From contig JAJFJQ010000038.1 of NCBI GenBank assembly GCA_021773835.1, forward strand, positions 1-38,358: a DNA stretch of 38,358 nucleotides, written 5' to 3'. A program made the position numbers and the translations under genes. The notes under the pieces were generated by a model. The model saw nothing but the letters and a program-made list of their open reading frames with translations. It was not told the DNA's origin and ran no database searches. Shown piece by piece: positions 7,354 to 38,358 of the stretch; the first letter of the stretch is position 1; every line of letters begins with the position of its first letter. The DNA is from Gammaproteobacteria bacterium. GTDB taxonomy: Bacteria; Pseudomonadota; Gammaproteobacteria; Ga0077536.

Positions 7354-8222
7354 AGCCACCCCAATTCGAATACCAACGTGCGCTCACGATCGAAGAAGCG
7401 ATTGCCGCCCGCGCTGCAAACGACAACACGGCGATCCTCGCGGGCGGTCAAAGTTTATTACCAACTTTGAACTTCCGCTTAGGCGCGCCCGATAGCCTGA
7501 TCGACATCAGCCGGATCCCCTCACTCAGTCAAATTGAGATAACGGATTCGGAGGTCAAGATCGGTGCGATGGTGCGCCAACGCCAAGTCGAAATACACGA
7601 CGAGATTAATCAGGCGAATCCCCTGTTGCGTGAAACGCTTGCCCACGTCGCGCATCTTGTCATTCGAAACCGTGGGACTGTTGTCGGCAGCTTGGCGCAT
7701 GCCGATGCCGCTGCCGAACTGCCGTCGGTGTTATTGACCTGCGACGGGCGAGTGGAAGTTGTCGGGCCAAATGGCGCGCGCTCGATCGCGGCGGATGAAT
7801 TTTTTCGTTTTCATTTAACGACAGCACTGAAGCCTGATGAATTAGTTACCGCTGCCTGCTTCCCGGTGCTGGCACCCGGGACGGGTTGGGCCTTCGGTGA
7901 GATCGCGCGCCGGCGGGGCGACTACGCCATCGCCGGGGTCTGCGTCGTGTTGAGCGTAGATTCCAATGGCAACTGCACCAGTGCAAGTTTGGGCGCGTGT
8001 GGTATCGGGTCACGGCCGATCCGTTTGCATGGCGCGGAAAAAATCTTAGTCGGAAGCCGCCTTGACGAAGATGCTATTGCTGCGGCCGGCGATGCCGCGC
8101 GTGAGGCGGTCGAGACACCGGACGACACTCAAGCCAGTCAGGCCTATCGTCAGCAGGTGCTCGCAACCTTGGTAAGAAGAAACGTCGTACGCGCCGCGGC
8201 GCGTGCGGGAGCACCTGCATGA
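7350..8222 (+). CDS. Molybdenum hydroxylase, FAD-binding subunit (CoxM/CutM-like)
   Basis: A 290-residue medium subunit of a xanthine-dehydrogenase-family enzyme. It passes electrons from the iron-sulfur subunit to an acceptor through FAD. The two FAD-binding loops are evident: AGGQSLLP (31-38) and TVVGSLAHAD (110-119). The C-terminal part has the CO dehydrogenase flavoprotein domain pattern (EIARRRGDYAIAGV). It overlaps hyuB by 4 bp and the next gene by 4 bp. Gene order is medium-small-large (M-S-L), as in CO-dehydrogenase-like and nicotine-dehydrogenase-like enzymes. The family is certain; the substrate is set by the large subunit and is unknown. Confidence 0.93.
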   Translation: MKPPQFEYQRALTIEEAIAARAANDNTAILAGGQSLLPTLNFRLGAPDSLIDISRIPSLSQIEITDSEVKIGAMVRQRQVEIHDEINQANPLLRETLAHVAHLVIRNRGTVVGSLAHADAAAELPSVLLTCDGRVEVVGPNGARSIAADEFFRFHLTTALKPDELVTAACFPVLAPGTGWAFGEIARRRGDYAIAGVCVVLSVDSNGNCTSASLGACGIGSRPIRLHGAEKILVGSRLDEDAIAAAGDAAREAVETPDDTQASQAYRQQVLATLVRRNVVRAAARAGAPA

Positions 8223-8758
8223 GTAAAAAGATCCGGAGCGCAGCGCCGAAAGCCGCAACCGATTCGACGGCTGAAATCTCGCTAACGATCAATGGCGAGG
8301 CGATCACCCGTGAAGTATCCACCAGACGCCTATTGAGCGATTTTCTCCGTCATGAACTTGGACTCACGGGCACACACGTGGGTTGCGAGCATGGTGTTTG
8401 CGGCTGCTGCACGGTGATCATCGATGGTTGGGCAGGCCGTTCGTGTTTAACTCTAGCGGTGCAGGCCGATGGCGCCGACATACGAACGGTTGAAAGTCTG
8501 GCAGCCGACGACGGTACCTTGCACGCCGTACAACAAGCGTTCCACGAATGTCATGCCTTGCAGTGCGGTTTCTGCACCCCTGGATTCCTCATGTCATTGG
8601 TCAATTATTTCGAAAGAACGCCGTCACCCGATCTGTCTGAAGATGGTATCCGATCGGTGCTGGCCGGCAATCTGTGTCGCTGCACGGGCTATCAAAATAT
8701 TGTTGCAGCGGTACGCAGGGCGGCCGAATTACTCAACGTTGAGGGGGCCAAGTCATGA
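8219..8758 (+). CDS. Molybdenum hydroxylase, 2x[2Fe-2S] small subunit (CoxS-like)
   Basis: A 179-residue small subunit. The N-terminal plant-ferredoxin-type cluster is bound by Cys56, Cys61, Cys64 and Cys76 (GCEHGVCGCC...SC). The C-terminal all-helical cluster is bound by CGFCTPG and CRCTGY. It relays electrons from the molybdenum centre to FAD. An approximately 18-residue polar extension precedes the domain (first strand ISLTINGE about residue 20), somewhat longer than the usual small subunit. Start and stop overlap both neighbours by 4 bp. All eight cluster ligands are present, so the enzyme should be functional. Confidence 0.95.
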   Translation: MSKKIRSAAPKAATDSTAEISLTINGEAITREVSTRRLLSDFLRHELGLTGTHVGCEHGVCGCCTVIIDGWAGRSCLTLAVQADGADIRTVESLAADDGTLHAVQQAFHECHALQCGFCTPGFLMSLVNYFERTPSPDLSEDGIRSVLAGNLCRCTGYQNIVAAVRRAAELLNVEGAKS

Positions 8759-11163
8759 GCACGCAGATGTTTGGCGCGCCGATCCCGCGCAATGTCGATC
8801 CGCGTCTCCTCAAAGGCGAGGGCGCCTATGTCGACGACATCCCGCTGACGGGCGCATTACACGCGGCGTTCTTACGCAGCCCATTCGCGCGCGCGCGGAT
8901 CGTCTCGATCGATGTTAGCGCGGCACTTGCGTATCCGGGAGTCGCTGCAGTTTATACCTGCGACAACATCGGCTCGCTGGATATGGAGATGCCGCTTTTG
9001 GTACCCCATCCATGTCTGATCGGTGCACGCACGCAACGGCCGTTGGCGCGCGACGAGGTGTTTTATGTTGGGCAGACGATCGCGATGGTCGTCGCGGTTG
9101 ACCGTTACACGGCCGAAGACGCCGCCGCGTTGATCGACGTCGACTACGAACCGCTCGATGTAACGGTCGAACTCGAGGCGGCGGCCGCAGAAGGGGCACA
9201 TCTCGTGCATCCCGATGTAGCCGGCAATATCGCTGCCGATTTTACCCAGACCTCGGGCGATCCCGACGCCGCGTTTGCAAAGGCCGAGCATTTCACTAAG
9301 GTCTCCGTACGCATCGAGCGCAGTACCGCGGCGCCGATGGAATGTCGTGCCGTGGCTGCGCGTTACGATGGGGCGACCGGGGAACTTACCGTCTGGGATA
9401 GCACCCAAGGCCCGATCCCTATCAGAGGTGGGCTTGCTGCGATATTTGATATCGACGAAGACAAGGTGCGGGTCATCGCGCCGGATGTCGGCGGCGGCTT
9501 CGGGCAGAAAGTGATGTTGTTCTATCCGGATGAGGTGCTGGTGCCAAACGCGGCGATGGAACTTGGCGCGCCGGTAAAATATATCGAGGACCGACCGGAA
9601 AATTTCCTTGGCTCCAATCAGGAGCGAACGCAAGTCCACGAACTCGAATTGGCTGCAAACAAGGACGGCGAAGTCCTTGGGGTGCGCGACACGTTTTTGC
9701 ACGACACCGGTGCATTCATTCCGTACGGCATTGCGGTCGCGCAGGTTGCCTCGACCTCGATCGCAGGCCCCTATCGGATCCCAAATATTTGGATCAAATT
9801 TCAGGCGATCTACACACCTACCGTTCCGGTATCTCCGTATCGCGGATGTGGACGTCCGCAGGCGTGTTTTGCCATAGAACGGGCGATGGACAAACTCGCC
9901 GACGAACTTGGGATGGATCGCATCGCACTGCGACGCAAAAATATGATCCGCAAAGATGATTTCCCCTACCTTCGCGAAGGTCTCTTATTCGCCGATGGGC
10001 TCGCAGTGCGCCACGACAGCGGTGACTATGAAGGTGCTATCGATATGTTGGAAGCGCATATGGATATTGCGGGCTTCCGGGCGGAACAAGCGGCGGCACG
10101 CAAGGAAAATCGCTATCTCGGGTTTGGGCTCGCGTGTTACGTCGAAGGTACCGGGCTCGGGCCGTACGAGGGTGCGCATATCCGCATTCACCCGATCACC
10201 GGCAAAGTTTATGTCAACACCGGCCTGACCACACAAGGGCAAGGCCATGAAACGATCTTCGCACAAATTGTTGCCGATCAACTTGGCGTAGCGGTGACCG
10301 ACGTCATTGTCACCGAAGGCGACACCCTTGCCTATGATTGGGGCGCGGCGACCTATGCGAGCCGTGCGGCCGTGGTCAGTGGTAACGCCGTGTATAAGAC
10401 TGCCGTGGTCGTACGTGAACAAGTACTCGAGACGGCCTCAGGTATGCTCGAAGTCGCGCCGATCGATCTGGAATTGGAGAATGGCGAGGTGCGGCTGAAA
10501 GGATTCCCAGAGCGTAAAGTTACCTTGGCTGAGGTCGCAACGATTTCAAACCCGTTGCGCTATACGTTTAGCGAATCGAGTAAATCCGCCGCACAGTTTG
10601 CCTCGAGTGCGAAGCACGATCGTCCGCCGTTGGACGAAGGCGCACACCCTGGTATCGAAGCGACCGATTATTACAGCCCGCCTTGTGCCACTTGGGCTTA
10701 TGGCGGCCACGCGGCGATCGTCGAGGTCGATCCCGAATTGTGTACCGTGAAATTTCTGCGTTACGTTTGCCTGCACGATTGTGGCCGCGTGATCAATCCC
10801 ATGATCGTTGAAGGGCAGATCCGGGGTGGTCTCGCGCAAGGGATCGGTGGTGCTTTGTACGAGCGCATCGAATACGACGAGGATGGGAATCCGCGCAACG
10901 CGAATTTTATGGATTTCCTGATGCCTTATGCGACGGAGGTACCGGAGGTCGAGATCTTACATATGGAAACACCGTCGCCGTTGAATCCACTGGGGGTTAA
11001 AGGCGTTGGTGAAGGCGGAACGATTGCCGTCGGTGCTTGTGTCGCCTCGGCGATTGAAGATGCCCTACAGCCGTTTGGCATTGAACGCTTGCATGAGGTA
11101 CCGCTGACATCGAATGTTCTCCATGCCGCATTAGACAGAGCGAAGGCAGGTGGCGCACCGTAA
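8755..11163 (+). CDS. Molybdenum hydroxylase, Moco-binding large subunit (CoxL-like, not CO dehydrogenase)
   Basis: An 802-residue catalytic subunit with the usual two-domain layout: aldehyde oxidase a/b hammerhead (about 15-135), then the molybdopterin-binding domain. The pterin contact GGGFGQK lies at 246-252. The catalytic base is Glu753 in GVGEGG. The loop that in true aerobic CO dehydrogenase reads AYxCSFR is PYRGCGRPQ here (about 361-369). The protein therefore belongs to the broad hydroxylase group acting on N-heterocycles or aldehydes rather than on CO. It is the last gene of the five-gene overlapping operon. The presence of hydantoinase subunits in the same transcript suggests that the hydroxylated product, a cyclic amide, is passed on for ring opening; that is inference. 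Confidence 0.93.
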   Translation: MSTQMFGAPIPRNVDPRLLKGEGAYVDDIPLTGALHAAFLRSPFARARIVSIDVSAALAYPGVAAVYTCDNIGSLDMEMPLLVPHPCLIGARTQRPLARDEVFYVGQTIAMVVAVDRYTAEDAAALIDVDYEPLDVTVELEAAAAEGAHLVHPDVAGNIAADFTQTSGDPDAAFAKAEHFTKVSVRIERSTAAPMECRAVAARYDGATGELTVWDSTQGPIPIRGGLAAIFDIDEDKVRVIAPDVGGGFGQKVMLFYPDEVLVPNAAMELGAPVKYIEDRPENFLGSNQERTQVHELELAANKDGEVLGVRDTFLHDTGAFIPYGIAVAQVASTSIAGPYRIPNIWIKFQAIYTPTVPVSPYRGCGRPQACFAIERAMDKLADELGMDRIALRRKNMIRKDDFPYLREGLLFADGLAVRHDSGDYEGAIDMLEAHMDIAGFRAEQAAARKENRYLGFGLACYVEGTGLGPYEGAHIRIHPITGKVYVNTGLTTQGQGHETIFAQIVADQLGVAVTDVIVTEGDTLAYDWGAATYASRAAVVSGNAVYKTAVVVREQVLETASGMLEVAPIDLELENGEVRLKGFPERKVTLAEVATISNPLRYTFSESSKSAAQFASSAKHDRPPLDEGAHPGIEATDYYSPPCATWAYGGHAAIVEVDPELCTVKFLRYVCLHDCGRVINPMIVEGQIRGGLAQGIGGALYERIEYDEDGNPRNANFMDFLMPYATEVPEVEILHMETPSPLNPLGVKGVGEGGTIAVGACVASAIEDALQPFGIERLHEVPLTSNVLHAALDRAKAGGAP

Positions 11164-15619: not shown

Positions 15620-15759
15620 TGTAATTTACTATTTCAGTGAGTGATTCGTTTCCAGCTTGCTGTTTGATCCGATCTTCTCGACTTCCTGTACCACCCGCTT
15701 TTGCTTCCCAGCTCAATTTTTGAGGCGAGGATAGTGATCCGCGTAACGCGCGGCGCCGT

Positions 15760-28338: not shown

Positions 28339-28908
28339 ATGCGTAAATTATTTCGTCGCATCGCGCAGCCTCGTGCGGTTCTTTACACGCTTGCCGTAGT
28401 GATATTTGGCATCTGCCTGGGCGGCTGTCTGGGTATTCCGAATAATGCGACGGCGGTGCGCAACTTTGAACTGGAACGCTATCTCGGAACTTGGTATGAA
28501 ATCGCCCGGCTCGATCATCGGTTCGAGCGCGGCTTGTCTCGGGTTCACGCCGAGTACAGCATGCGCGACGATGGTGGCGTTCGCGTCATCAATACCGGTT
28601 ACAACCAGGAAGACGGTAAGTGGGAACGTGCTGAGGGTAGAGCGTACTTTGTCGACAAGCCTGAAATCGGCCGTCTGAAGGTTGCTTTCTTTGGCCCCTT
28701 CTACGGTGCGTATAACGTCGTAGCGCTGGACCAAGAGCACTACAGCTACTCAATGGTGATCAGTTCCAATACTTCCTATCTGTGGATCCTCGCACGACAT
28801 CCCACGCTCAATAGCAAGATCCTGGACGAGCTAGTGGCGATGGCCGGCAAACTGGGCTTCGACACTGATGAACTGATCTATCCCAAACACGACGGCGGGA
28901 AAAATTGA
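28339..28908 (+). CDS. blc: Outer-membrane lipocalin (Blc-type lipoprotein)
   Basis: A 189-residue lipoprotein. A basic start and hydrophobic core lead to a lipobox LGGC with the modified Cys30. The lipocalin fold then shows its first conserved region, LGTWYEIARLDHRFERG (about 49-65), followed by the strands YSMRDDGGVRVINTGYN, GRLKVAFFGPFYGAYNVVALD and SYLWILARHP. Blc-type proteins bind lysophospholipids or fatty acids at the outer membrane and are induced by envelope stress. Location next to a sigma/ChrR and fatty-acid-modifying gene set fits a role in lipid repair or transport under oxidative stress. Confidence 0.93.
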   Translation: MRKLFRRIAQPRAVLYTLAVVIFGICLGGCLGIPNNATAVRNFELERYLGTWYEIARLDHRFERGLSRVHAEYSMRDDGGVRVINTGYNQEDGKWERAEGRAYFVDKPEIGRLKVAFFGPFYGAYNVVALDQEHYSYSMVISSNTSYLWILARHPTLNSKILDELVAMAGKLGFDTDELIYPKHDGGKN

Positions 28909-28984
28909 TGTCGGCCCGCACCATGACGATCCTCTCAGTTGCTGGCTCTTCAAGATCTGGATCGTATCGGATCTTTCGATAGCC

Positions 28985-29482
28985 ATGCACACCGTGACTG
29001 TTGGGGCGGAGCTCGATCTCGACGTCAAATCATGGCGCACGATCAACGACGGCGTCATGGGAGGGGTCTCCCGAGGTGAGATGGTCGCTTTTAATCATGG
29101 GCTACGTTTCCGGGGGCTGCTGTCATTGGAGAACAACGGTGGGTTCGCGTCGGCGCGCATGGTCTATCGCGGCAACCCGACTAGTGTCGGCGGCGTTCGC
29201 CTTCGAGTGAGGGGAGACGGTCGCCGCTATCAGTTCCGTGTACGGCTGGATGATCGCTACGATGGCATCTCATGGCGTGCTAGCTTTGACACAAACTTAT
29301 CCTGGCAGATCATCAATCTGCCATTCAGAGAATTCGAACAAGTTTATCGCGGCAGACCGGTTACTAATGCCGGGGTATTTGATCCAGCGAAGATCCGACA
29401 GATCGGATTTATGCTTGTGGACGGAAAAGAAGGCTCCTTCCAACTCGATATCACTAGCATCGAGTTTCCAACCGGCAAATAG
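28985..29482 (+). CDS. CIA30 family protein
   Basis: A 165-residue single domain of the CIA30 (complex I intermediate-associated protein 30) family, a galactose-binding-like beta sandwich. Diagnostic parts are WRTINDGVMGGVSRGEM (about 17-33), ENNGGFASARM and the closing strands IRQIGFMLVDGKEGSFQLDI. Bacterial members are often near lipocalins, DUF3833 and SDR genes and are of unclear function. There is no signal peptide from this start. The upstream 76 bp contains stops in frame, so a longer exported form is not possible without an error. It probably belongs to the same transcript as the lipocalin. Confidence 0.87.
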   Translation: MHTVTVGAELDLDVKSWRTINDGVMGGVSRGEMVAFNHGLRFRGLLSLENNGGFASARMVYRGNPTSVGGVRLRVRGDGRRYQFRVRLDDRYDGISWRASFDTNLSWQIINLPFREFEQVYRGRPVTNAGVFDPAKIRQIGFMLVDGKEGSFQLDITSIEFPTGK

Positions 29483-29551: not shown

Positions 29552-29581
29552 TGATCCGATTTACTTTTCAATACGTAAGAA
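29552..29581 (+). promoter_or_regulatory. Candidate ECF sigma (RpoE/ChrR-type) promoter for the DUF3833 operon
   Basis: TGATCC (29552-29557), an 18 bp spacer, then TAAGAA (29576-29581). It has the same -35 hexamer and exact spacing as the two sites between the sigma and amine-oxidase genes. TGATCC is the -35 element reported for the R. sphaeroides sigma-E regulon. The expected start of transcription, about 29587-29590, is at or just before the first codons of the DUF3833 gene. Confidence 0.72.
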
Positions 29582-29586
29582 GCCAT

Positions 29587-30150
29587 ATGAACGTAATGCA
29601 AAGTCTTCGGCTCGCAGGCCGTCGCTACCGCCCGCTTGTCCTCCTCCCCCCACTATTGGCGGTCGGTTGTGGCGGTCTGCGGCTGGAGGACAGTGCCGGG
29701 GACTCCCCGCGCTTCGATCCATTCAGCTATTTTGCCGGTCAGACCCGAGCCTGGGGCATTGTGCAGGATTGGCGTGGCCGCGTCGTGCGCCGCTTCGATG
29801 TCGATATCGAGGGTTCACTCGAAAATGGCGAGCTGCGTCTCGACGAGGAGTTTCGCTATGCCGACGGCGAGCGGTCGACCCGTCAATGGCGGATCCAAGC
29901 GGACGAGAACGGGCGCCTCAGCGGCACCGCAGACGACATCGTCGGAACTGCCGCAGGCGATCTAGCTGGTAACGCGATGCGCTGGCGCTACCCAATGGAC
30001 CTCGAGGTCGGCGGCCGCAGCCATCGAGTGCATTTCGACGACTGGCTGTGGCAACTCGACCAAGACGTACTCGTGAACCGTTCGTACATTCGTAAATTCG
30101 GGCTCAAGGTCGCGGAAGTCACGATTTTCATGCAGAAATCAGACGGCTGA
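29587..30150 (+). CDS. DUF3833 family lipoprotein
   Basis: A 187-residue protein with a signal peptide and lipobox LLAVGC (Cys28), then the DUF3833 domain: FDPFSYFAGQTRAWGIVQDWRGRVVRRFDV, YADGERSTRQWRI, GTADDIVGTAAGDLAGNAMRWRYP and VHFDDWLWQLDQDVLVN. The biochemical role is unknown; it is a membrane-anchored beta-rich protein that recurs with lipid-modifying genes. The frame opens at 29527, but that stretch overlaps the candidate TGATCC-N18-TAAGAA promoter. If this promoter is used, translation starts at 29587 on a leaderless mRNA or at the ATG at 29596. First gene of a tight four-gene operon. Confidence 0.88.
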   Translation: MNVMQSLRLAGRRYRPLVLLPPLLAVGCGGLRLEDSAGDSPRFDPFSYFAGQTRAWGIVQDWRGRVVRRFDVDIEGSLENGELRLDEEFRYADGERSTRQWRIQADENGRLSGTADDIVGTAAGDLAGNAMRWRYPMDLEVGGRSHRVHFDDWLWQLDQDVLVNRSYIRKFGLKVAEVTIFMQKSDG

Positions 30151-30160
30151 GCTAGTGCAT

Positions 30161-30856
30161 ATGGCGCGACTCGGGTTATTGACCGCGTTGTTTCTGGGGT
30201 TTTCGATGTCGTCATTCGCCACGACGTGTCCGTCCTCATCGGGCCTCGGCGATTTCGTCGCCGCTACCTATGGGGACCGCATCGAATTCGACGTCCTGCG
30301 CAACGGCAAAACCATTGGCGAACACGTCACGACGTTTGCCGTCGGGACTGATGGTGTTCGAGTCGAATCCAGAATGCAGCTCGGCATCGACGTTTTTTTT
30401 ATTCCCGTTTACCGCTTCGCTTACGAATCGCGATCGCGCTGGTGTGACGATCGCCTGCAAGAACTCGAGGCGAGGACCAGCGACAACGGAGAGGTTTCAA
30501 AAACGACAGCTGCGATCATTGGCAACACTTTGCAAATCGAGCGCGACGGAACGATTGTCGAGGGTCCAGCGGACTTGATACCCACAGATCACTGGAACCC
30601 CCGCGTGCTCGCGCGCCGCACTGTGCTCAACACCATCACCGGCCGCGTCAACGCTGTGACCATCGAACGTTGCAGTACGGGCTCCGATATGATTGAGAGC
30701 GCGGCGCCGCAAGGAACGTGTTACGAATATGCTGGCGATCTGCAGACCCGCGTCTGGTATGACCCTGTCGGCCGTTGGGTCGGCCTCGAATTCGAAGCCG
30801 GGGACGGTTCCGCTATTTCCTATGTTTGCCGCGCTTGCAAGGCGAAACCGATATGA
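30161..30856 (+). CDS. DUF6134 family exported protein
   Basis: A 231-residue protein with an N-terminal signal peptide (MARLGLLTALFLGFSMSSFA, cleavage probably near residue 20). It has an all-beta body: YGDRIEFDVLRNGKTIGEHVTTF, VESRMQLGIDVFFIPVYRFAYESRSRW, PTDHWNPRVL and QTRVWYDPVGRWVGLEFE. This is the DUF6134 pattern; function is unknown, and a periplasmic lipid-binding or chaperone-like barrel is conceivable. Four cysteines, two of them in the C-terminal CRAC motif, may form disulfides. GTG 30155 is an alternative start. It lies 10 bp after the DUF3833 gene and overlaps the following SDR by 4 bp. Confidence 0.82.
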   Translation: MARLGLLTALFLGFSMSSFATTCPSSSGLGDFVAATYGDRIEFDVLRNGKTIGEHVTTFAVGTDGVRVESRMQLGIDVFFIPVYRFAYESRSRWCDDRLQELEARTSDNGEVSKTTAAIIGNTLQIERDGTIVEGPADLIPTDHWNPRVLARRTVLNTITGRVNAVTIERCSTGSDMIESAAPQGTCYEYAGDLQTRVWYDPVGRWVGLEFEAGDGSAISYVCRACKAKPI

Positions 30857-31617
30857 GCTTATCGCCGATCCCGACTCACGTATGGATAACGGGCGCGAGT
30901 AGCGGTCTCGGAGCGGCATTGGCGCATACTTATTCTGCAGTCGGCGCACAAGTAGCGTTGACCGCTCGCTCGCGGGACCGACTCGAGGCGTGCGCGGCAG
31001 CTTTACCATTGCCCGGCGACGGTAGTGTCTACCCTGCCGATGTCACAAAGCGCGACGAACTGTTCGACGCGATTTCCGCGATCGAAAAAAGCGCACCGAT
31101 AGACCTCGCAATATTAAACGCCGGCACGTATATACCGACAAATCTCGACGACTGGAACACCAAGACGATACGCGCGTTATTCGATACAAATTTCTTCAGC
31201 GTCACGACCTGCATCGAGCTGCTTCTACCATACATGCGCGCGCGCGGGCGCGGCCATATCGCCGTCGTCGCATCGGTCGCAGGTGATATCGGCTTGCCAT
31301 ATGCTGCCTCCTACAGCGCGAGCAAGGCTGCACTGAATCGGATCTGCCAATCGCTACGTCCAGAGCTCGAGCGTGAAGGGATCCGCATCTCTGTGATCAA
31401 CCCAGGGTTCGTGCGTACCCCGTTGACATCGCGCAATGCGTTTCCAATGCCATTCTTAATTGATGCGGATCGTGCCGCCGACATCATCCGGCGCAAGCTA
31501 GCGCGTGGCTGCTTCAACATCCGCTTTCCGTGGCGGATGAGCGTCGCCATGCGACTGCTTGCTGTCCTGCCGCCATCGCTGACATTGTTGCTCACTCGGC
31601 GTATGTTGCGTCGATGA
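30853..31617 (+). CDS. SDR family oxidoreductase
   Basis: A 254-residue short-chain dehydrogenase with all catalytic parts: TGASSGLG (13-20), LNAG (88-91), Ser141, and Tyr154/Lys158 in YSASK. The C-terminal stretch RFPWRMSVAMRLLAVLPPSLTLLLTRRML is hydrophobic and basic, suggesting contact with the membrane, as in SDRs acting on lipids. The ATG at 30853 overlaps the previous stop (ATGA); longer frames do not add SDR sequence. In this operon it may process a modified fatty acid or lipid aldehyde. That is inferred from neighbours only. Confidence 0.9.
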   Translation: MSLSPIPTHVWITGASSGLGAALAHTYSAVGAQVALTARSRDRLEACAAALPLPGDGSVYPADVTKRDELFDAISAIEKSAPIDLAILNAGTYIPTNLDDWNTKTIRALFDTNFFSVTTCIELLLPYMRARGRGHIAVVASVAGDIGLPYAASYSASKAALNRICQSLRPELEREGIRISVINPGFVRTPLTSRNAFPMPFLIDADRAADIIRRKLARGCFNIRFPWRMSVAMRLLAVLPPSLTLLLTRRMLRR

Positions 31618-32054
31618 ACGACGCGCTCGACACCTACATTACAGCCCTTCAATCTCTCACCGCCGATCGACTCGACGACTTTATGTTGCTGGTCACGGAC
31701 GATGTGCATTTTCGCGATCCGTTCAACGATTGCCGCGGGCGCGGCCATTACCGTGCAGTACTCGAAGACATGTTCGAGAAGCTCGACGCGATTGAGTTCA
31801 GCGTAGACGAATCTGCCTGGGTCGCGCCGCTTGATGCGGCGCATGCGAACAAGGCGCTGATCAAATGGACACTAACGGCCGAGTTACATAAGAAACTGTG
31901 GCGGTTGGAAGGCTGCTCAGACCTTCGTTTCGACCCAAACGGACTCTTGCTCGCGCACCATGACTATTGGGATGCGGCGAGTGGGCTATACGAGAGATTC
32001 CCCTTGATCAGGACAGTGCTAAAGTTGTTGCGCGGACGTATCCGTGTCGATTGA
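31614..32054 (+). CDS. NTF2-like / SnoaL-type protein
   Basis: A 146-residue cone-shaped alpha+beta barrel protein of the nuclear transport factor 2-like superfamily: an N-terminal helix (ALDTYITALQSLTADRLDDF), then VHFRDPFNDCRGRGHYRAVLEDMF, and strands ending HHDYWDAASGLYERFPLI. Members bind or isomerise small hydrophobic ligands or act as non-catalytic partners. The start overlaps the SDR stop by 4 bp. The 3' end overlaps the convergent MFS gene by 36 bp. Probably the last gene of the DUF3833 operon. Confidence 0.87.
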   Translation: MNDALDTYITALQSLTADRLDDFMLLVTDDVHFRDPFNDCRGRGHYRAVLEDMFEKLDAIEFSVDESAWVAPLDAAHANKALIKWTLTAELHKKLWRLEGCSDLRFDPNGLLLAHHDYWDAASGLYERFPLIRTVLKLLRGRIRVD

Positions 32055-33326
32055 AGGACCCGTATCGATACGGCCCAGCAGGACTATCACGGCGCATTTC
32101 AGCGCGACCGGTAGCACGACATACAGACAGAGTAATACCGCCGGATCCGGTGGCGATCCGGCAGCTGCGCCGCGTCCGCTGAGTCCCAGTCCGGCGAATG
32201 CGGCGACGATGGCAACAGCCAGCGCCAGCTTCGTCGCCATCGACCACAATGCAAATGCCGTCGCCGTTCGACGGCGGCCGGAGTGCTGCCGATCACGTTC
32301 GAGAATGTCGGCTTGTAGGGAAGGCGGCAGTGCCAGGTCGGCGCCTAGGGTCATACCGCTGGCGATGCAAATCCCGATGAACCAGACAGCGGTCGATTGA
32401 TCGAGCCAGAGAACCTGGGCGAACACCAGCACATTGAACGCTATGGCCACTTTCCAAGCGCGAACTTTGCCGTAGCGACGCGCCAACGTTAACCACAACG
32501 GCATCGCGACGACAGCCGCGCCGAAATAACACACGAGCAGACCATAAAGATCGCTATCGTCGAGTGCGAAGTAATCTTGCACCACAATAGGAAACAAAAC
32601 TGCCGGCAAACCGTTAGCAATCCCGTTCACGAACCAGCACGTCAGCGTCCGCCGAAATTCCCGCAACCGCCAAAGGTCCCCGATGTCGGACACGCTAAAG
32701 CGTTCGTGATTCGCGCGGACCGCGGGCTCCGGCACCAGCAGTGCGAAACCAATCATCGCCGGTACGCCGAATGCAATCGCCGCGACGCTGAGTGCTAAGA
32801 GCGGCGCGACATCCGCGGCGCCCGGGAGGGTCGCGGCCAGCAGCGGGAGCGTTATCGCAATCAGCATGCCGCACAAACCTGCTGCTTCGCGACTCGCGGT
32901 CAGGCGTGAACGTTCATGGTGATCGTGTGACAGTTCGGCGCCCCATGCGGTATACGGCACCATCATCAACGTCCACCCCGTAAACAGCACAATCGAACCT
33001 AGCCCCAGCCACATCGTCGTTACGGGCGCAGGGGGTAATGCCAACGCAACCAGACCAGCACCGGCAATGAGCGCACCGGCGAGCACGAGGGGTTTGTAGC
33101 GGTAGCCGTACCAGTCGATGCGATCCGCGATAGTACCAACCAGTAGATCGCTGGCTAAGTCGATGATGCGTGCCGCTCCGAGCACCAGGCCCGTGAGCAA
33201 AAATCCGAGCCCGAGATCGCTTGCGTACCAACTCGGCAGCAAGACCGCGACCGGAATCACCGGCAGCGCCGCAATCAACCCCGGCAATCCGTATCCGAAG
33301 ACGACTCGAAAAGGCAATCCGATCAT
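32019..33326 (-). CDS. MFS transporter, MelB/GPH-like
   Basis: A 435-residue integral membrane protein with about 12 hydrophobic segments. The N-terminal YGLPGLIAALPVIPVAVLLPSWYASDLGLG and DLASDLLVGTIADRIDWYGYRYKPLVL match the glycoside-pentoside-hexuronide/MelB branch of the major facilitator superfamily. The ATG at 33326 is preferred because the upstream part of the open frame runs into the preceding methyltransferase gene in another frame. The carrier belongs to the operon of lipid-modifying genes, 34 bp after the methyltransferase. A sugar substrate is unlikely from context; a lipid or lipid-derived cargo is an inference. Confidence 0.88.
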   Translation of the reverse strand: MIGLPFRVVFGYGLPGLIAALPVIPVAVLLPSWYASDLGLGFLLTGLVLGAARIIDLASDLLVGTIADRIDWYGYRYKPLVLAGALIAGAGLVALALPPAPVTTMWLGLGSIVLFTGWTLMMVPYTAWGAELSHDHHERSRLTASREAAGLCGMLIAITLPLLAATLPGAADVAPLLALSVAAIAFGVPAMIGFALLVPEPAVRANHERFSVSDIGDLWRLREFRRTLTCWFVNGIANGLPAVLFPIVVQDYFALDDSDLYGLLVCYFGAAVVAMPLWLTLARRYGKVRAWKVAIAFNVLVFAQVLWLDQSTAVWFIGICIASGMTLGADLALPPSLQADILERDRQHSGRRRTATAFALWSMATKLALAVAIVAAFAGLGLSGRGAAAGSPPDPAVLLCLYVVLPVALKCAVIVLLGRIDTGPSIDTDTSAQQL

Positions 33327-33360
33327 CAAGCCGGCCGCAGGAGAAAGTGCGCTTGCCGCG

Positions 33361-34581
33361 TCACCCAGTACGTTCCAGACGAACCTGAACGACGTCGGTC
33401 GCACCGGTACGAAAGCCGGCTTCACAATAGGCGAGATAGAAATGCCACAGGCGCCGGAAACGTTCGTCGAATCCGAGTTCACGGAGCATACTCCAGGCAC
33501 TATCGAAGCCGTCGCGCCAGTGCCTGATCGTCTGCGCATAATCGGGACCGAACGCAAATCGATCCGTTACCTTGAGTCTGGCTCGAGCGAACGTCTGCTC
33601 TATTGCTGTCTTGCTCGGCAACATTCCGCCCGGAAAAATATATTTCTGGATGAAGTCGGGCGTTGTGCGGTAACCGTCGAAACGCGACTCGTCGATCGTA
33701 ATAATCTGGAGCGCAGCAACGCCTCCCGGCCGCAACAGTCCGCGCAGCTTCGATGCGTAGGTGTCCCAATACGCCTCGCCAACGGCCTCGAACATTTCAA
33801 TTGAAACGATGCGGTCGAAACTGCCGTTGAGATCGCGATAATCGCAAAATTTTACCCGCGCTCGATCAGTAAGACCCGCGCGTGCGATCCGGTCCTCGGT
33901 AAAGCGACACTGTTCCCGCGAGATTGAAACACCCGTGACGTCCGCACCACGTCTCGCAGCGTACTCCATGAACCCGCCCCACCCACAGCCAATCTCGAGC
34001 ACGCGGTCGCCCGGTACGATCCCCACTATGTCCGCGAGACGGGCATATTTGCGCGCCTGCGCATCGACAAGTGGTTCATCCGGGTGGTTGAAAATCCCCG
34101 CTGAGTAAGTCATCGACTGATCGAGCCAATGCCCATAGAACGCATTGCCGAGGTCATAGTGATAGGCGATGTTGCGACGCGCCTGTCGACGCGAATTTGA
34201 GCGTAGATAGTGCCGCAGTTTCGCGGTGAGGCGAGTAAAGACGCCGAGACCGGTTGTCGCGCTCTCATCCGCGTCCTCGTTGCACGCAGCAAAGTACAGG
34301 AAACCGGTTAAGGAATCGCTATCCCAGTCACCCGCGAGATACGACTCGGCAAATCCGATCGATCCGCCCGTCGTCAGCGTCCACAGCGGCTTGAGATTAT
34401 GCAGACGTAAATGCGCGTCTGGACCAGGTGCGTCCGATCCGGTGTAACGACGCACTTCGCCATCCGGCATTTCGATCGCTAGTGTACCCGCGCGGACCAA
34501 ACGTCCGATCCGTTCAAGCGCGATGTGGGTGATTGATGGTACGAACCGTGGCACGGCAGCCGCGGAAGATGATTGTTTCAT
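33361..34581 (-). CDS. Cyclopropane-fatty-acyl-phospholipid synthase-like methyltransferase
   Basis: A 406-residue SAM-dependent enzyme that modifies double bonds of phospholipid acyl chains. Seen are the N-terminal lipid-binding part (GFAESYLAGDWD, 76-87), the conserved HYDLGNAFYGHWLD (141-154), the SAM motif VLEIGCGWGGF (194-204) and FDRIVSIEMFEAVGEAYW. The length and motifs suit both a genuine Cfa and the UfaM-type methylase that adds a methyl branch in furan fatty acid synthesis. The ChrR-controlled neighbourhood with an amine-oxidase-like flavoprotein makes the second reading attractive. It overlaps DUF1365 by 4 bp upstream. Confidence 0.92.
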   Translation of the reverse strand: MKQSSSAAAVPRFVPSITHIALERIGRLVRAGTLAIEMPDGEVRRYTGSDAPGPDAHLRLHNLKPLWTLTTGGSIGFAESYLAGDWDSDSLTGFLYFAACNEDADESATTGLGVFTRLTAKLRHYLRSNSRRQARRNIAYHYDLGNAFYGHWLDQSMTYSAGIFNHPDEPLVDAQARKYARLADIVGIVPGDRVLEIGCGWGGFMEYAARRGADVTGVSISREQCRFTEDRIARAGLTDRARVKFCDYRDLNGSFDRIVSIEMFEAVGEAYWDTYASKLRGLLRPGGVAALQIITIDESRFDGYRTTPDFIQKYIFPGGMLPSKTAIEQTFARARLKVTDRFAFGPDYAQTIRHWRDGFDSAWSMLRELGFDERFRRLWHFYLAYCEAGFRTGATDVVQVRLERTG

Positions 34582-35342
34582 AGTTCAGTTCCAATGGATG
34601 TCTGTTGTCGCGTAGTCGCGTGGCGGACCAACGGGAAGCCACGCAACCAAAGTTTGAAGGCTTCGTAATGGATGCCGGCGATGACCTTGACGGTTGCCGC
34701 GGGATGCGTGAGGGCAAGTTTGCGCAAGGCCGCCGCCCCGAATGGTTGATAGCTGCCGTTAAAGCCGGCGTGCAGCCGGCGCTCCCCGCCCGCGAAATAA
34801 TCGATGCCGACGCGCATGCGGTCGTTGGAAGTGTCGACGAGGAATTCATAGTGACCTTGCAGGTCGAAAAACGGTGACACAAACATGGCCTTGTCGCAGC
34901 GCTGCCGGATCGGTAACCGGCCGCTCTCGACTGGTGCCACGTAAGCAATGCGCTCGCCGAATGTACTATTGACCTCATAGATCATCGCGCCGATAGAACC
35001 GTCGCCGCGATGACAGAAAACAACGCTGATAGGGTTGAAAACGTAACCGAACATGCGCGGCATGGCTAAAATACGGAACTGCCAGTCGACGTTGCGGTAA
35101 CCCGCTTCGTGCAGAGTGTCGTTAATCCAACCGCGTAACGGCTTGGGATTTCCCGTCCCGTGATCGCTCTCTCGAAAACTGAACCACGTTCGCCTGTTAA
35201 CACCGAAAAGACGCGATACCTGGTCGAGTTCGTCCAGTTCGTCGAGATCGAGTAGCAAGAAGAATGTCTTATAACGGAACGCATGCCCACGTCCGGTGAA
35301 CCGGCGATGGTAGACCTCGCCCGTGTAAATCGCGGAATTCAT
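34578..35342 (-). CDS. DUF1365 family protein
   Basis: A 254-residue protein of the DUF1365 family, almost always found between an amine-oxidase-like flavoprotein and a Cfa-like methyltransferase, as here. Diagnostic segments are YTGEVYHRRFTGRGHAFRYKTFFLLLDLDEL (3-33), MPRMFGYVFNPISVVFCHRGDG (about 95-116), EVNSTFGERIAYV and KAMFVSPFFDLQGHYEF. There is no signal peptide or strong membrane segment. The reaction is unknown; the conserved pairing suggests a role in modification of unsaturated acyl chains. Both ends overlap neighbours by 4 bp, showing a polycistronic message. Confidence 0.9.
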   Translation of the reverse strand: MNSAIYTGEVYHRRFTGRGHAFRYKTFFLLLDLDELDELDQVSRLFGVNRRTWFSFRESDHGTGNPKPLRGWINDTLHEAGYRNVDWQFRILAMPRMFGYVFNPISVVFCHRGDGSIGAMIYEVNSTFGERIAYVAPVESGRLPIRQRCDKAMFVSPFFDLQGHYEFLVDTSNDRMRVGIDYFAGGERRLHAGFNGSYQPFGAAALRKLALTHPAATVKVIAGIHYEAFKLWLRGFPLVRHATTRQQTSIGTEL

Positions 35343-36697
35343 GCACTCAGCGCCGCGCGCGGCCGGAGCTCGCGAGCGTCATAACTACTCGGCAGGCGCG
35401 TATAGGGACCAGCGTTCGCCCACGGACGTGCGCAGCCGAGCTGTTCGGCAATCCATAATCCTGATTGCAGCGCGTCCTCGTGAAAACCGTGACCGAAATA
35501 GCTGCCGCAGAACCAGGTCCGCTGTCGACCCTGGATCGCAATCGATTGCTCCTGCTGATAGGAGGTTGCGGTGCTAAAGATCGGATGCTCATACGCATAG
35601 CGCCCTCGCGTCAATATGCCGGCTGGGTCGCGCGTCGGATTCAAGGTGACAAACAACTGGCGATCCGTTTGCAAGGGCTGTAATCGATTCATCCAATACG
35701 TCACGCACAGCGGGGTTTGCTCCCCCGAATATCCAGACTGTAGGTAGTTCCAGCTCGACCACGCGGCCCGCCGGCGCGGCATTAAGCGCCGATCTTCGTG
35801 CAGATACGCCGTATTGCGGCTGTATTCAAAAGCACCGAGTACCGAACGCTCCGTTGCCGTTGCATCGGCTAGCAGTACCAAAGCTTGGTTCGCGTGCGTT
35901 GCGATCACGACGTCGTCGAAGCGTTCTGGATGACCACTTCCGTCCACGACCGTAACGCCACTGGCGCCACGCGTAATGGCATTGACCGGCGTGCCCGCGC
36001 GAACGGTCATCACCGCATCATCGACAAGACGGGACACGTATTCGCGACTTCCGTCGAGCACGGTTCGCCACTGGGGGCGGTGTCCGAGGTCGAGCAACCC
36101 GTGATTATCGAAAAATCGAATGAATGCATCGGCCGGATACTGTGCGATGTCTCGCCGCGATGCTGACCAGATTGCAGCTGCCATCGGGATGAGATGATCG
36201 TCGATAAATGCGTCGGAATAGGCTTCGCGCTGCAGCAGCTCCTGCACCGTGAGGTCCGCTGCATTGGTCTCCAGATAAGCAGGCGCGGCGGCGTAGAAGC
36301 GTCTGATATCAAGCAGCATGCGCCAAAACCGGAGGCTGATGGCATTGCGCGGTTGCGCAAAGACGCCGGCCAGGTCCGAACCCGAGTACTCTACGCGTCC
36401 GTCGTCGAGCGACACGCCGAACGACATATCACTGTCGGCAGTGGCGACACCGAGGGTGTCGAACAGCGCAATGAGATTCGGATAGTTGCGGACGTTATAG
36501 ACGATAAAGCCGGTATCGACTGCGACGGGCCGCCCGTTATCGTCAATCTCCACGGTATTCGCGTGTCCACCGAGTCGCCCGTTGCTATCGTATAGGGTAA
36601 CTTCGTGTCGCCGCGACAACGACCAGGCGGCGCCAAGTCCGGCGATTCCGCCACCGACCACGGCTATTTTTTTAACGGCGATGGGTTCGTTTGACAT
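35339..36697 (-). CDS. FAD-dependent amine-oxidase-like oxidoreductase
   Basis: A 452-residue flavoprotein. An N-terminal Rossmann loop, VVGGGIAGLGAAW (about 13-25), is followed by the RLGGHANTV motif and VAVDTGFIVYNVRNYPNL, typical of the group found with Cfa and DUF1365. The C-terminal part holds YAYEHPIFST and the closing GSYFGHGFHEDALQSGLW flavin motif. In R. sphaeroides a desaturase (UfaD) acts on methylated acyl chains on the way to furan fatty acids, and a flavoprotein of this kind is a candidate for such a step. I have not verified this gene as an orthologue. ATG 36697 was chosen over 36727 because the promoter and flavin domain fit it. Confidence 0.9.
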   Translation of the reverse strand: MSNEPIAVKKIAVVGGGIAGLGAAWSLSRRHEVTLYDSNGRLGGHANTVEIDDNGRPVAVDTGFIVYNVRNYPNLIALFDTLGVATADSDMSFGVSLDDGRVEYSGSDLAGVFAQPRNAISLRFWRMLLDIRRFYAAAPAYLETNAADLTVQELLQREAYSDAFIDDHLIPMAAAIWSASRRDIAQYPADAFIRFFDNHGLLDLGHRPQWRTVLDGSREYVSRLVDDAVMTVRAGTPVNAITRGASGVTVVDGSGHPERFDDVVIATHANQALVLLADATATERSVLGAFEYSRNTAYLHEDRRLMPRRRAAWSSWNYLQSGYSGEQTPLCVTYWMNRLQPLQTDRQLFVTLNPTRDPAGILTRGRYAYEHPIFSTATSYQQEQSIAIQGRQRTWFCGSYFGHGFHEDALQSGLWIAEQLGCARPWANAGPYTRLPSSYDARELRPRAALSA

Positions 36698-36730: not shown

Positions 36731-36760
36731 GAAGTACGCTCCGCCGGGCGTGATGGATCA
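36731..36760 (-). promoter_or_regulatory. Candidate ECF sigma promoter for the amine-oxidase/Cfa operon
   Basis: On the minus strand: TGATCC (36760-36755), an 18 bp spacer, TACTTC (36736-36731). The expected transcript would start near 36724, about 27 nt before the ATG at 36697. It lies back to back with the rightward promoter at 36771. Confidence 0.75.
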
Positions 36761-36770
36761 CGGCAGTGGG

Positions 36771-36800
36771 TGATCCGATTCGGGGCCAGCGCCGTATTGC
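36771..36800 (+). promoter_or_regulatory. Candidate autoregulatory ECF sigma promoter for sigma/chrR
   Basis: TGATCC (36771-36776), an 18 bp spacer, TATTGC (36795-36800). Transcription would start about 36807, leaving roughly an 11 nt leader before the ATG at 36818. This supports that start codon over the earlier in-frame ones. Confidence 0.72.
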
Positions 36801-36817
36801 CGGGTATGCTTGCGCGA

Positions 36818-37435
36818 ATGTCTGATGAACGCATGAAAATGCCCGATAACGTGATACCCCTGATGGGCGGCGACACCAGCGGTGATGCCGCGCGCCGCGC
36901 CGAGACCCTCCTACTCGTTAAAGTGCGGGACAACGGGGATCGGGAGGCATATGGGGAATTGTTCGACGCTTTTACCCCACGACTGCGTGCCTATGCTCGG
37001 CACCATGGTTGCGATGCAGGGGCAGCGGAGAACGTGGTCCAGGACGTCATGGTCACTGCGTGGACACGGGCGCGTCTATTCGATCCGGACAAAGCCTCCG
37101 CGCGGACCTGGATCTATACCCTCGTGCGCAACCGCCTCATCGACCAGTATCGCGCTGGCGAGCGCCGGCAGCGGGCCTATGACGGCTACGCAACAACGTT
37201 ATCGGAATCGATGAGCGACACTGACAGTTCTGAGCGAGACCTGCGCAGTTCGCGCTTATCCGCGCTACTCGTCGAGCTGCCCGAAGAGCAAGCACAAGCC
37301 GTTTTGATGTCCTATATCGAAGGTAAGTCGCACCGCGAAATTGCCGAAGAACTGCATGTACCGATAGGCACGATCAAGTCGCGTACGCGCCTCGCGCTGC
37401 AGCGACTCCGCAAACTAATGGAGGATCCGGTATGA
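36818..37435 (+). CDS. rpoE: ECF RNA polymerase sigma factor (RpoE/ChrR-associated type)
   Basis: A 205-residue sigma-70 family ECF factor. Region 2 (about 40-115) includes FDAFTPRLRAYARHHG, AENVVQDVMVTAW and ARTWIYTLVRNRLIDQYR. Region 4 (about 150-202) includes LPEEQAQAVLMSYIEGKSHREIAEEL and the recognition helix VPIGTIKSRTRLALQRLRKL. Its start codon was chosen because a TGATCC-N18-TA promoter lies just upstream. The 4 bp overlap with a ChrR-type anti-sigma gene places it in the group that answers singlet oxygen or organic peroxides. It probably drives its own promoter, the divergent operon and the DUF3833 operon. Confidence 0.92.
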   Translation: MSDERMKMPDNVIPLMGGDTSGDAARRAETLLLVKVRDNGDREAYGELFDAFTPRLRAYARHHGCDAGAAENVVQDVMVTAWTRARLFDPDKASARTWIYTLVRNRLIDQYRAGERRQRAYDGYATTLSESMSDTDSSERDLRSSRLSALLVELPEEQAQAVLMSYIEGKSHREIAEELHVPIGTIKSRTRLALQRLRKLMEDPV

Positions 37436-38088
37436 ACGCGATCCATCACCCAAGCGCGGCCTGGTTGCTCGATTACGCAACGGGCAACGCACCGCCATTG
37501 TTCGAGACCGTAATCCGCGCCCACGTCGGCGCCTGCGCAGATTGCCGTGAAGAGATCGCTTTCGCGGAAAACCTCGGCGGCGAAATCATCGCAGCCGGCG
37601 GTTTCGTTACGACGGGAACGCTAAAGGCACAGGACATCTGCGATCGGTATGAGCAACAGGACGATGGCGGAACGCCGTTTTCCCGCGCGGACGAAGTCGC
37701 GTTGAATGGCGGCATCGAACAATTCGTAGCAACCTATCTCCACAGCAGCATGGAAGCGCTGCCGTGGAGAAGCCTTGGAGGCGATCTTGAAATCTGCCGG
37801 CTAGCCGAAGAGCACGGTGCCCACATGTGGATGCTAAGGGGGCAACCCGGAACGATATTGCCCGAGCATACCCACGGCGGTAGTGAACTGACCCTCGTAC
37901 TCAAAGGTTCTTATTTCTGCGGTTCGGATATTTTCCACGCCGGTGATATAGAAGACGCCGACGAGGATACCGAGCACCAACCCGTGATCACGCGCGACGG
38001 CGAATGTATCTGCCTCGCAGTAACCGAGGGTAACCTCCGCTTCAAAAAACTCCTGCCGCGTCTAGTACAGCCGTTTATCGGTATTTGA
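37432..38088 (+). CDS. chrR: ChrR-type zinc anti-sigma factor
   Basis: A 218-residue two-domain anti-sigma factor. The N-terminal zinc-binding anti-sigma domain has His6, His31, Cys35 and Cys38, the same numbering as in R. sphaeroides ChrR. The C-terminal cupin (about 110-200) has the metal ligands His146, His148, Glu152 (PEHTHGGSE) and His182, spaced as in ChrR with a +5 offset. The first domain holds the sigma factor inactive; the cupin is needed for release on singlet oxygen. All ligands are retained, so the switch should work. It overlaps the sigma gene by 4 bp. Confidence 0.94.
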   Translation: MNAIHHPSAAWLLDYATGNAPPLFETVIRAHVGACADCREEIAFAENLGGEIIAAGGFVTTGTLKAQDICDRYEQQDDGGTPFSRADEVALNGGIEQFVATYLHSSMEALPWRSLGGDLEICRLAEEHGAHMWMLRGQPGTILPEHTHGGSELTLVLKGSYFCGSDIFHAGDIEDADEDTEHQPVITRDGECICLAVTEGNLRFKKLLPRLVQPFIGI

Positions 38089-38133: not shown

Positions 38134-38358
38134 TGAGGCTCCCCCAGTTTAACGGATAGTTTAATTCGGCGACGATAGTCGCCTTAGAGGAGTATCCGAA
38201 CAATGAACAAACGAGCAAGTTATACCAAAGAATTCAAACTAGAAGCGCTGCGCTTAATGCGTGAATCAGAGCGACCAGCGACGGATGTTGCGCGAGAACT
38301 GGGTATCCGTCGGAACCAGCTTTATAAATGGCAGGAGCAATACGCGGCTAACGGTGAG
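38134..38358 (+). mobile_element. IS3-family insertion sequence, left end (continues beyond window)
   Basis: It starts TGAGGCTCCCCCAGTTT, with the TG terminus and CCCC run typical of IS3-family inverted repeats. The OrfA gene follows after about 69 bp. Only the left part is visible; orfB and the right end are outside the window. Confidence 0.75.
38203..38358 (+). CDS. IS3-family transposase OrfA (partial, 5' end)
   Basis: The first 52 codons of an IS3-type OrfA, truncated by the window edge. The sequence opens MNKRASYTKEFKLEALRLM and continues with the helix-turn-helix segment ATDVARELGIRRNQLYKWQ, the DNA-binding domain that recognises the element ends. A TTAGAGGAG ribosome-binding site lies about 10 nt upstream. 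In this family OrfA is fused by programmed frameshifting to the DDE-containing OrfB, which would follow. Codon use is more A/T-rich than in the sigma/chrR genes, in line with recent arrival. Confidence 0.9.
   Translation, partial: MNKRASYTKEFKLEALRLMRESERPATDVARELGIRRNQLYKWQEQYAANGE

Follow-up and report, generated by a model that had tools for sequence, protein, structure and literature searches.

The 120 bp gap between the amine oxidase ATG at 36697 (minus strand) and the likely sigma gene ATG at 36818 (plus strand) of the studied contig, which is probably gammaproteobacterial, is, with a probability of roughly nine in ten, the divergent promoter region of an ECF11-type RpoE/ChrR system, with the mechanism proposed below. 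The window, i.e. the whole stretch of DNA that was analysed, is the entire contig of 38,358 bases. A search for a 16S gene by which to place the organism gave no match; RpoB, compared with solved structures, scores best with 7xya and 7f0r of Pseudomonas aeruginosa (2238.3 bits), against 2117.9 bits for the Escherichia coli chain and 1748.5 for 7ye1 of Caulobacter, but 6wmp of Francisella, although gammaproteobacterial as well, has only 1734.7, so that the scores agree with a gammaproteobacterial origin and are no proof of it. The assignment draws on the gene families, the promoter form, and the conservation of the sites and of the gene order; from the studied systems of Rhodobacter, Shewanella and Pseudomonas we infer that the sigma factor would bind here, that induction and feedback would operate, and what the lipid product would be.

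The divergent gap, its genes and the third site

The sigma factor, whose best solved match is R. sphaeroides RpoE (2q1z_A, E 3e-34), aligns closely with that protein in region 4 (GTIKSR.RLAL.RLR), while the neighbouring anti-sigma factor reaches 150 bits with the ChrR model TIGR02451 (cut-off 124.5) and matches 2z2s_B with E 1.8e-28. The alignment to 2z2s_B retains eight of the eight zinc ligands, namely H6, H31, C35 and C38 together with H146, H148, E152 and H182, the latter four, of the cupin-like domain, corresponding to H141, H143, E147 and H177 of R. sphaeroides ChrR; the ligands of both the anti-sigma and the cupin domains are listed in PMC6852236. The window ChrR is the single match of TIGR02451 in the whole genome. 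Judged by sequence, the two proteins are an RpoE/ChrR pair matching the solved R. sphaeroides structures 2q1z and 2z2s. As to the features by which RpoE/ChrR (ECF11) systems are recognised, sigma regions 2 and 4 and both zinc-ligand sets of ChrR are present, together with a putative autoregulatory promoter of the form TGATCC-N16-CGTA, identified from its letters and its conservation. The start codon of the sigma gene is uncertain, with in-frame ATG at 36806, 36818, 36833 and 36839, the one at 36806 lying right after the -10 element of the sigma-chrR site. The start of an HTH_Tnp_1 transposase gene (38203-38358) occupies the contig end just after chrR, so that an insertion element seems to be where the assembly broke off.

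Coordinates of the genes and promoter-like sites of the system in the window
Feature	Position	Strand	Details
ECF sigma factor, RpoE/ChrR type	36818..37435	+	Pfam Sigma70_r2, r4_2
ChrR zinc anti-sigma factor, cupin-like domain	37432..38088	+	ATG overlaps sigma stop
ufaD-like flavin amine oxidase	35339..36697	-	Pfam Amino_oxidase
ufaO-like DUF1365 protein	34578..35342	-	PF07103, 241 bits
ufaM-like Cfa-type acyl methyltransferase	33361..34581	-	PF02353 CMAS, 279 bits
MFS_2 (GPH-type) transporter, final operon gene	32019..33557 (open frame, not start codon)	-	PF13347, 172 bits
Convergent operon	29587..32054	+	DUF3833 29587-30150, DUF6134 30155-30856, SDR 30853-31617, SnoaL_2 31614-32054
Promoter-like site, ufaD operon	36733..36760	-	-35 TGATCC 36760..36755, -10 CGTACT 36738..36733
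Promoter-like site, sigma-chrR	36771..36798	+	-35 TGATCC 36771..36776, -10 CGTATT 36793..36798
Third site	29552..29579	+	TGATCC-N16-CGTAAG, faces DUF3833-DUF6134-SDR-SnoaL

The two sites of the gap face outward, the minus-strand one being TGATCCATCACGCCCGGCGGAGCGTA (36760..36735) and the plus-strand one TGATCCGATTCGGGGCCAGCGCCGTA (36771..36796), and each reads TGATCC-N16-CGTA (the strict form below), by which it also fits the looser TGATCC-N18-TA. The sequence-only reading had described two TGATCC-N18-TA sites on opposite strands of this gap; the pair was confirmed in the sequence and is kept in relatives, but of the motif, present at both sites, the informative form is TGATCC-N16-CGTA. The hexamers of the sigma-chrR site are identical to those published for Shewanella rpoE2 (PMC4336711).

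The amine oxidase, the DUF1365 protein and the Cfa-type methyltransferase of the leftward operon resemble by family, and putatively correspond to, UfaD, UfaO and UfaM (PMC7380195), through which R. sphaeroides is described to produce the furan fatty acid 9M5-FuFA, UfaO carrying DUF1365; the name ufaD is given by analogy with RSP_1091 of the same source, by family and not by direct sequence comparison. We infer also that the DUF3833 gene of the convergent operon is the counterpart of the RSP_1088 lipoprotein. The core-target families ufaD, ufaO, ufaM (Cfa), SDR and, by this putative match, the lipoprotein gene are present in the island made up of these operons. The usual core target phrB, sought by its family PF00875 only, gave no match in the genome, which is 98% complete, the same search giving matches in 8 of 14 named genomes; phrB is a usual target of RpoE/ChrR and not its defining part.

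The third site, which was absent from the sequence-only reading, has its TGATCC-N16-CGTA at 29552..29577 (plus strand), 9 bp upstream of the first DUF3833 ATG. Its -10 element ends 7 bp upstream of that first in-frame ATG (29587), so that the transcript may be near-leaderless or use the next ATG. Lipocalin and CIA30-domain genes (28339-29482) directly precede this site and are kept in the relative G035 (locus L083). Counterparts of the third site were found as strict sites upstream of DUF3833 (L083, L084) or of DUF6134 (L085, L086); the strict site faces DUF3833 also in L098 and L099, and a further DUF3833 homolog with the motif in front of it lies on a separate contig in each of G016 and G017. 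Elsewhere in the window, Pfam matches mark genes for hydantoinase A (3395) and for a molybdopterin-binding dehydrogenase (8755) within 3395-11163, with frames between them that look like partner subunits, and the protein encoded by 1695-2219 is small and carries a sorting motif of the PEP-CTERM type.

Conservation of the paired sites and the rival explanations

ChrR matches were found in 27 of the 36 genomes of the family. The 31 loci examined comprise 30 from the ChrR search and the third copy of G035; after setting apart L081 (no sigma match) and L064 and L068 (cut by contig ends), 28 operons were searched up to 400 bp upstream of the sigma alignment, spacers of N16 or N17 being taken as strict. 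A strict site was present in 27 of the 28 family sigma/ChrR operons, window included, and sites in both directions in 20, counts that stand for fewer independent events because they include the window itself, its close relatives (L053, L054) and the extra copies of G035 and G002. The sole operon with no strict site, L078, has a weak partial ChrR match. A strict site faces away from sigma in 24 of the 28 operons (the 20 pairs with L060, L061, L062 and L079) and toward sigma in 23 (the pairs with L072, L077 and L080), and in four of these seven one-sided operons, L060-L062 and L079, the side with no strict site has a 9-of-10 match. The identity of the sigma factors among the 27 goes down to 40%.

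When the spacings from 4 to 39 were scanned, the 48 matches fell at N16 (40), N17 (7) and N29 (1). The N17 spacer, at one or both promoters, was seen within the family in genus g3 only (L063, L065, L066, L069, L070), and outside the family in L105. Aligned to its two closest relatives, the window keeps the -35 element and CGTA unchanged, with variation in the bases between them. The base after TGATCC was never C in 32 N16 sites of 18 loci (G 21, A 7, T 4), 3 of which lie outside the sigma/ufaD gaps, and is not C in the three sites of the window either. The gene order is kept as well: a ufaD homolog adjoins and diverges from sigma in 18 of 20 regions from relatives, ufaD being absent in L097 and L100 and partial in L090, and many of the regions have homologs of SDR and SnoaL pointing toward ufaM or the transporter. 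The relative G035 contains three sigma/ChrR/ufa islands, on contigs C16, C34 and C9 (L083, L098, L099); every island has one strict site or more, and the ChrR copies are 90, 55 and 53% identical to the window ChrR.

The centre of the gap holds a perfect 7 bp inverted repeat, GGATCAC-N8-GTGATCC at 36755-36776, which could be read as the operator of a dimeric transcription factor instead of two -35 elements, the more so as the 10 bp between the TGATCC hexamers is common to the window and its two closest relatives. However, a dimer site would keep its centre and not its outer spacing, and the reverse is found here: across the 20 family pairs the hexamer-to-hexamer distance ranges from these 10 bp to 67 bp, while each CGTA stays at 16-17 bp from its own hexamer. 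The palindromic operator was therefore rejected on the varying centre distance and is regarded as very improbable.

The short pattern being common in the genome, one of the two promoters might be real and the other a chance match, an explanation that is hardly credible with both sites present in 20 of 28 family operons and in 4 of 7 further loci of the class. For this one gap, the density of strict sites in the genome predicts an outward pair about 3e-8 times, if the gap is taken as 119 bp and the sites are assumed independent. It is just as improbable that the sites serve another ECF sigma factor of the same specificity, the adjacent one not being autoregulated: the three sigma/ChrR islands with the same motif in G035 make cross-recognition possible in principle, but in the genome of the window, where the search covered ChrR and not the further ECF sigma factors, ChrR was matched once only, and the adjacent sigma factor is close to R. 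sphaeroides RpoE in region 4. The divergent RpoE/ChrR promoter region is thus the preferred reading.

Motif counts and the extent of the regulon

The window contains 4 matches of TGATCC-N18-TA against 0.62 expected, a number reached by none of 100 shuffles; the strict form occurs at three of them (36735 minus, 36771 plus, 29552 plus), and the fourth, at 15665, has no CG before TA. The genome scan for TGATCC-N18-TA that the sequence-only reading had asked for was run and gave 224 matches, but proved uninformative, since a small regulon is lost in the background. The reverse strand has 111 of these matches, whereas six other spacings average 93.8 there (P about 0.05, with codon-phase effects uncontrolled); the comparison is confined to this strand because, on the forward one, the variable-gap search seems to give a single match for each start. 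For the strict form, the genome has 22 matches, whereas six other spacings average 15.2 (P about 0.06), and the surplus is confined to the forward strand (16 vs 5.7; reverse 6 vs 9.5). The sequence CTAG is rare in many bacteria, and the reversed-pattern control for the strict form (1+1 matches), which would make the motif look much more enriched, was set aside because its pattern contains CTAG.

Of the 19 strict sites that do not belong to the island, 18 fall, by a mechanical listing of ORFs, inside an ORF of at least 150 aa; the three island sites do likewise, via upstream in-frame start codons, so that the listing cannot separate them from the others. As the strict form is near chance genome-wide, it is conservation that decides, and, most genome matches being background, the real regulon must be small. 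By blastn, only three of the 22 strict-site loci, those of the island, had matches in relatives; the other 19 had none against 43 loci of four relatives. These relatives carry 48 strict sites (G027 14, G035 18, G016 8, G017 8), of which the 43 compared with the 22 own loci cover all those of G027, G016 and G017 and 13 of the 18 of G035, the 5 left out lying in the C16 and C34 islands. A tblastx comparison gave three weak matches, for L035, L042 and L046, which were rejected as the motifs differ in place or strand. Plausible downstream genes at L016 (EAL-FHA gene), L033 (Sel1 repeats) and L049 (PhyH) were likewise not accepted, showing no such conservation.

Among 274 genomes of the class, at least one strict match was found in 252, and ChrR over the cut-off in 10, 3 of them family members, with ChrR matches below the cut-off in a further 71 class genomes kept outside the counts; thus, finding the motif in a genome is no indication of the system. 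In the seven non-family ChrR loci, both sites are present in four (L103, L104, L105, L107), and a strict site upstream of sigma is missing in three (L106, L108, L110), L106 having a 9-of-10 match on the sigma side. Divergent ufaD neighbours occur in the non-family loci L103, L104 and L110.

Proposed mechanism and relation to the known systems

By analogy with the studied systems, ChrR would keep the sigma factor inactive until it is itself inactivated by singlet oxygen or an organic peroxide, and sigma is freed. The freed sigma factor would transcribe its own operon rightward, a positive feedback in which ChrR is co-made, ufaD-ufaO-ufaM-MFS leftward and, from the third promoter 7 kb off, DUF3833-DUF6134-SDR-SnoaL; the products of UfaM, UfaD and UfaO would then be furan fatty acids, compounds that react with singlet oxygen. 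In R. sphaeroides, RSP_1091/1090 were reported to be needed for ChrR turnover, as a positive loop (PMC3818230, PMC6852236); furan fatty acids being needed for this turnover in Rhodobacter, the output would here too feed back on the switch. Both operons of the gap would be expressed and induced by singlet oxygen. Autoregulation of sigma/chrR with co-induction of the lipid operon, which had been predicted from the letters, is the best reading of the RpoE/ChrR proteins, the published promoter form and the conservation of both sites. A distance of 10 bp between the -35 elements would leave little room for two polymerases in the gap; as this distance varies widely in the relatives, there is no sign that crowding is selected.

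The likeness to the R. sphaeroides RpoE-ChrR (ECF11) system includes the sigma/ChrR pair with the same zinc ligands and the ufaD/ufaO operon upstream of rpoE-chrR, each with an RpoE promoter (PMC3818230, PMC7380195, PMC6852236), such a promoter being described before each of the operons RSP_1091-1087 and rpoEchrR (PMC3818230). However, the ufaM-like gene lies here within the ufaD-ufaO operon, ufaM being the separate RSP_2144 in R. sphaeroides, SDR and DUF3833 form part of another operon, which is convergent and has a site of its own, and a PF00875 photolyase was not found in the window's genome. The rpoE2-chrR system of Shewanella oneidensis has the same TGATCC/CGTATT sigma promoter, with the start mapped by primer extension (PMC4336711), but cfa and phrB are described there in a separate operon, and it is a Lon-domain gene that has the neighbouring gene number and a candidate site. 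In Pseudomonas syringae, the PSPTO_1043/1042 system, reported to be induced by singlet oxygen and tBOOH, shares the TGATCC-N16-CGTA consensus, obtained by ChIP-seq with reporters, and the site upstream of the sigma gene (PMC5507510), whereas most core genes are given at another locus with phrB, and 137 putative ChIP-seq sites are reported, as well as targets particular to P. syringae. Accordingly, the earlier suggestion that RpoE/ChrR specificity is conserved in gammaproteobacteria holds, but is not new, being in print (PMC4336711, PMC5507510, PMC6852236).

The conservation of RSP_1089-1087 is restricted to Rhodobacteraceae according to PMC3818230, and P. syringae orthologs of RSP_1087 and RSP_1088 are listed in PMC5507510; the MFS, DUF3833 and SDR genes of the island side with the wider distribution, by family and not by orthology. 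A search of the open-access literature for furan fatty acid, sigma factor and Gammaproteobacteria returned no paper on the topic, which is no proof of absence. The new details are small: only three island sites of 22 were found conserved, PF00875 photolyase gave no match, and one relative has three islands. It is possible, though doubtful, that the regulon has shrunk to a self-contained three-promoter furan-fatty-acid island with no photolyase, which is portable and was tripled in G035; if so, several sigma/ChrR switches would read the same promoter in one cell.

The finding is correct and an ordinary new example of a known stress system, whose picture it leaves unchanged. It provides a clean conserved example, from a poorly known lineage, of a singlet-oxygen sigma switch placed back to back with furan-fatty-acid genes, suggests the DUF6134 and SnoaL-type genes as its regular neighbours, and supports the published view that the promoter specificity and the feedback loop between the sigma factor and the lipid are old.
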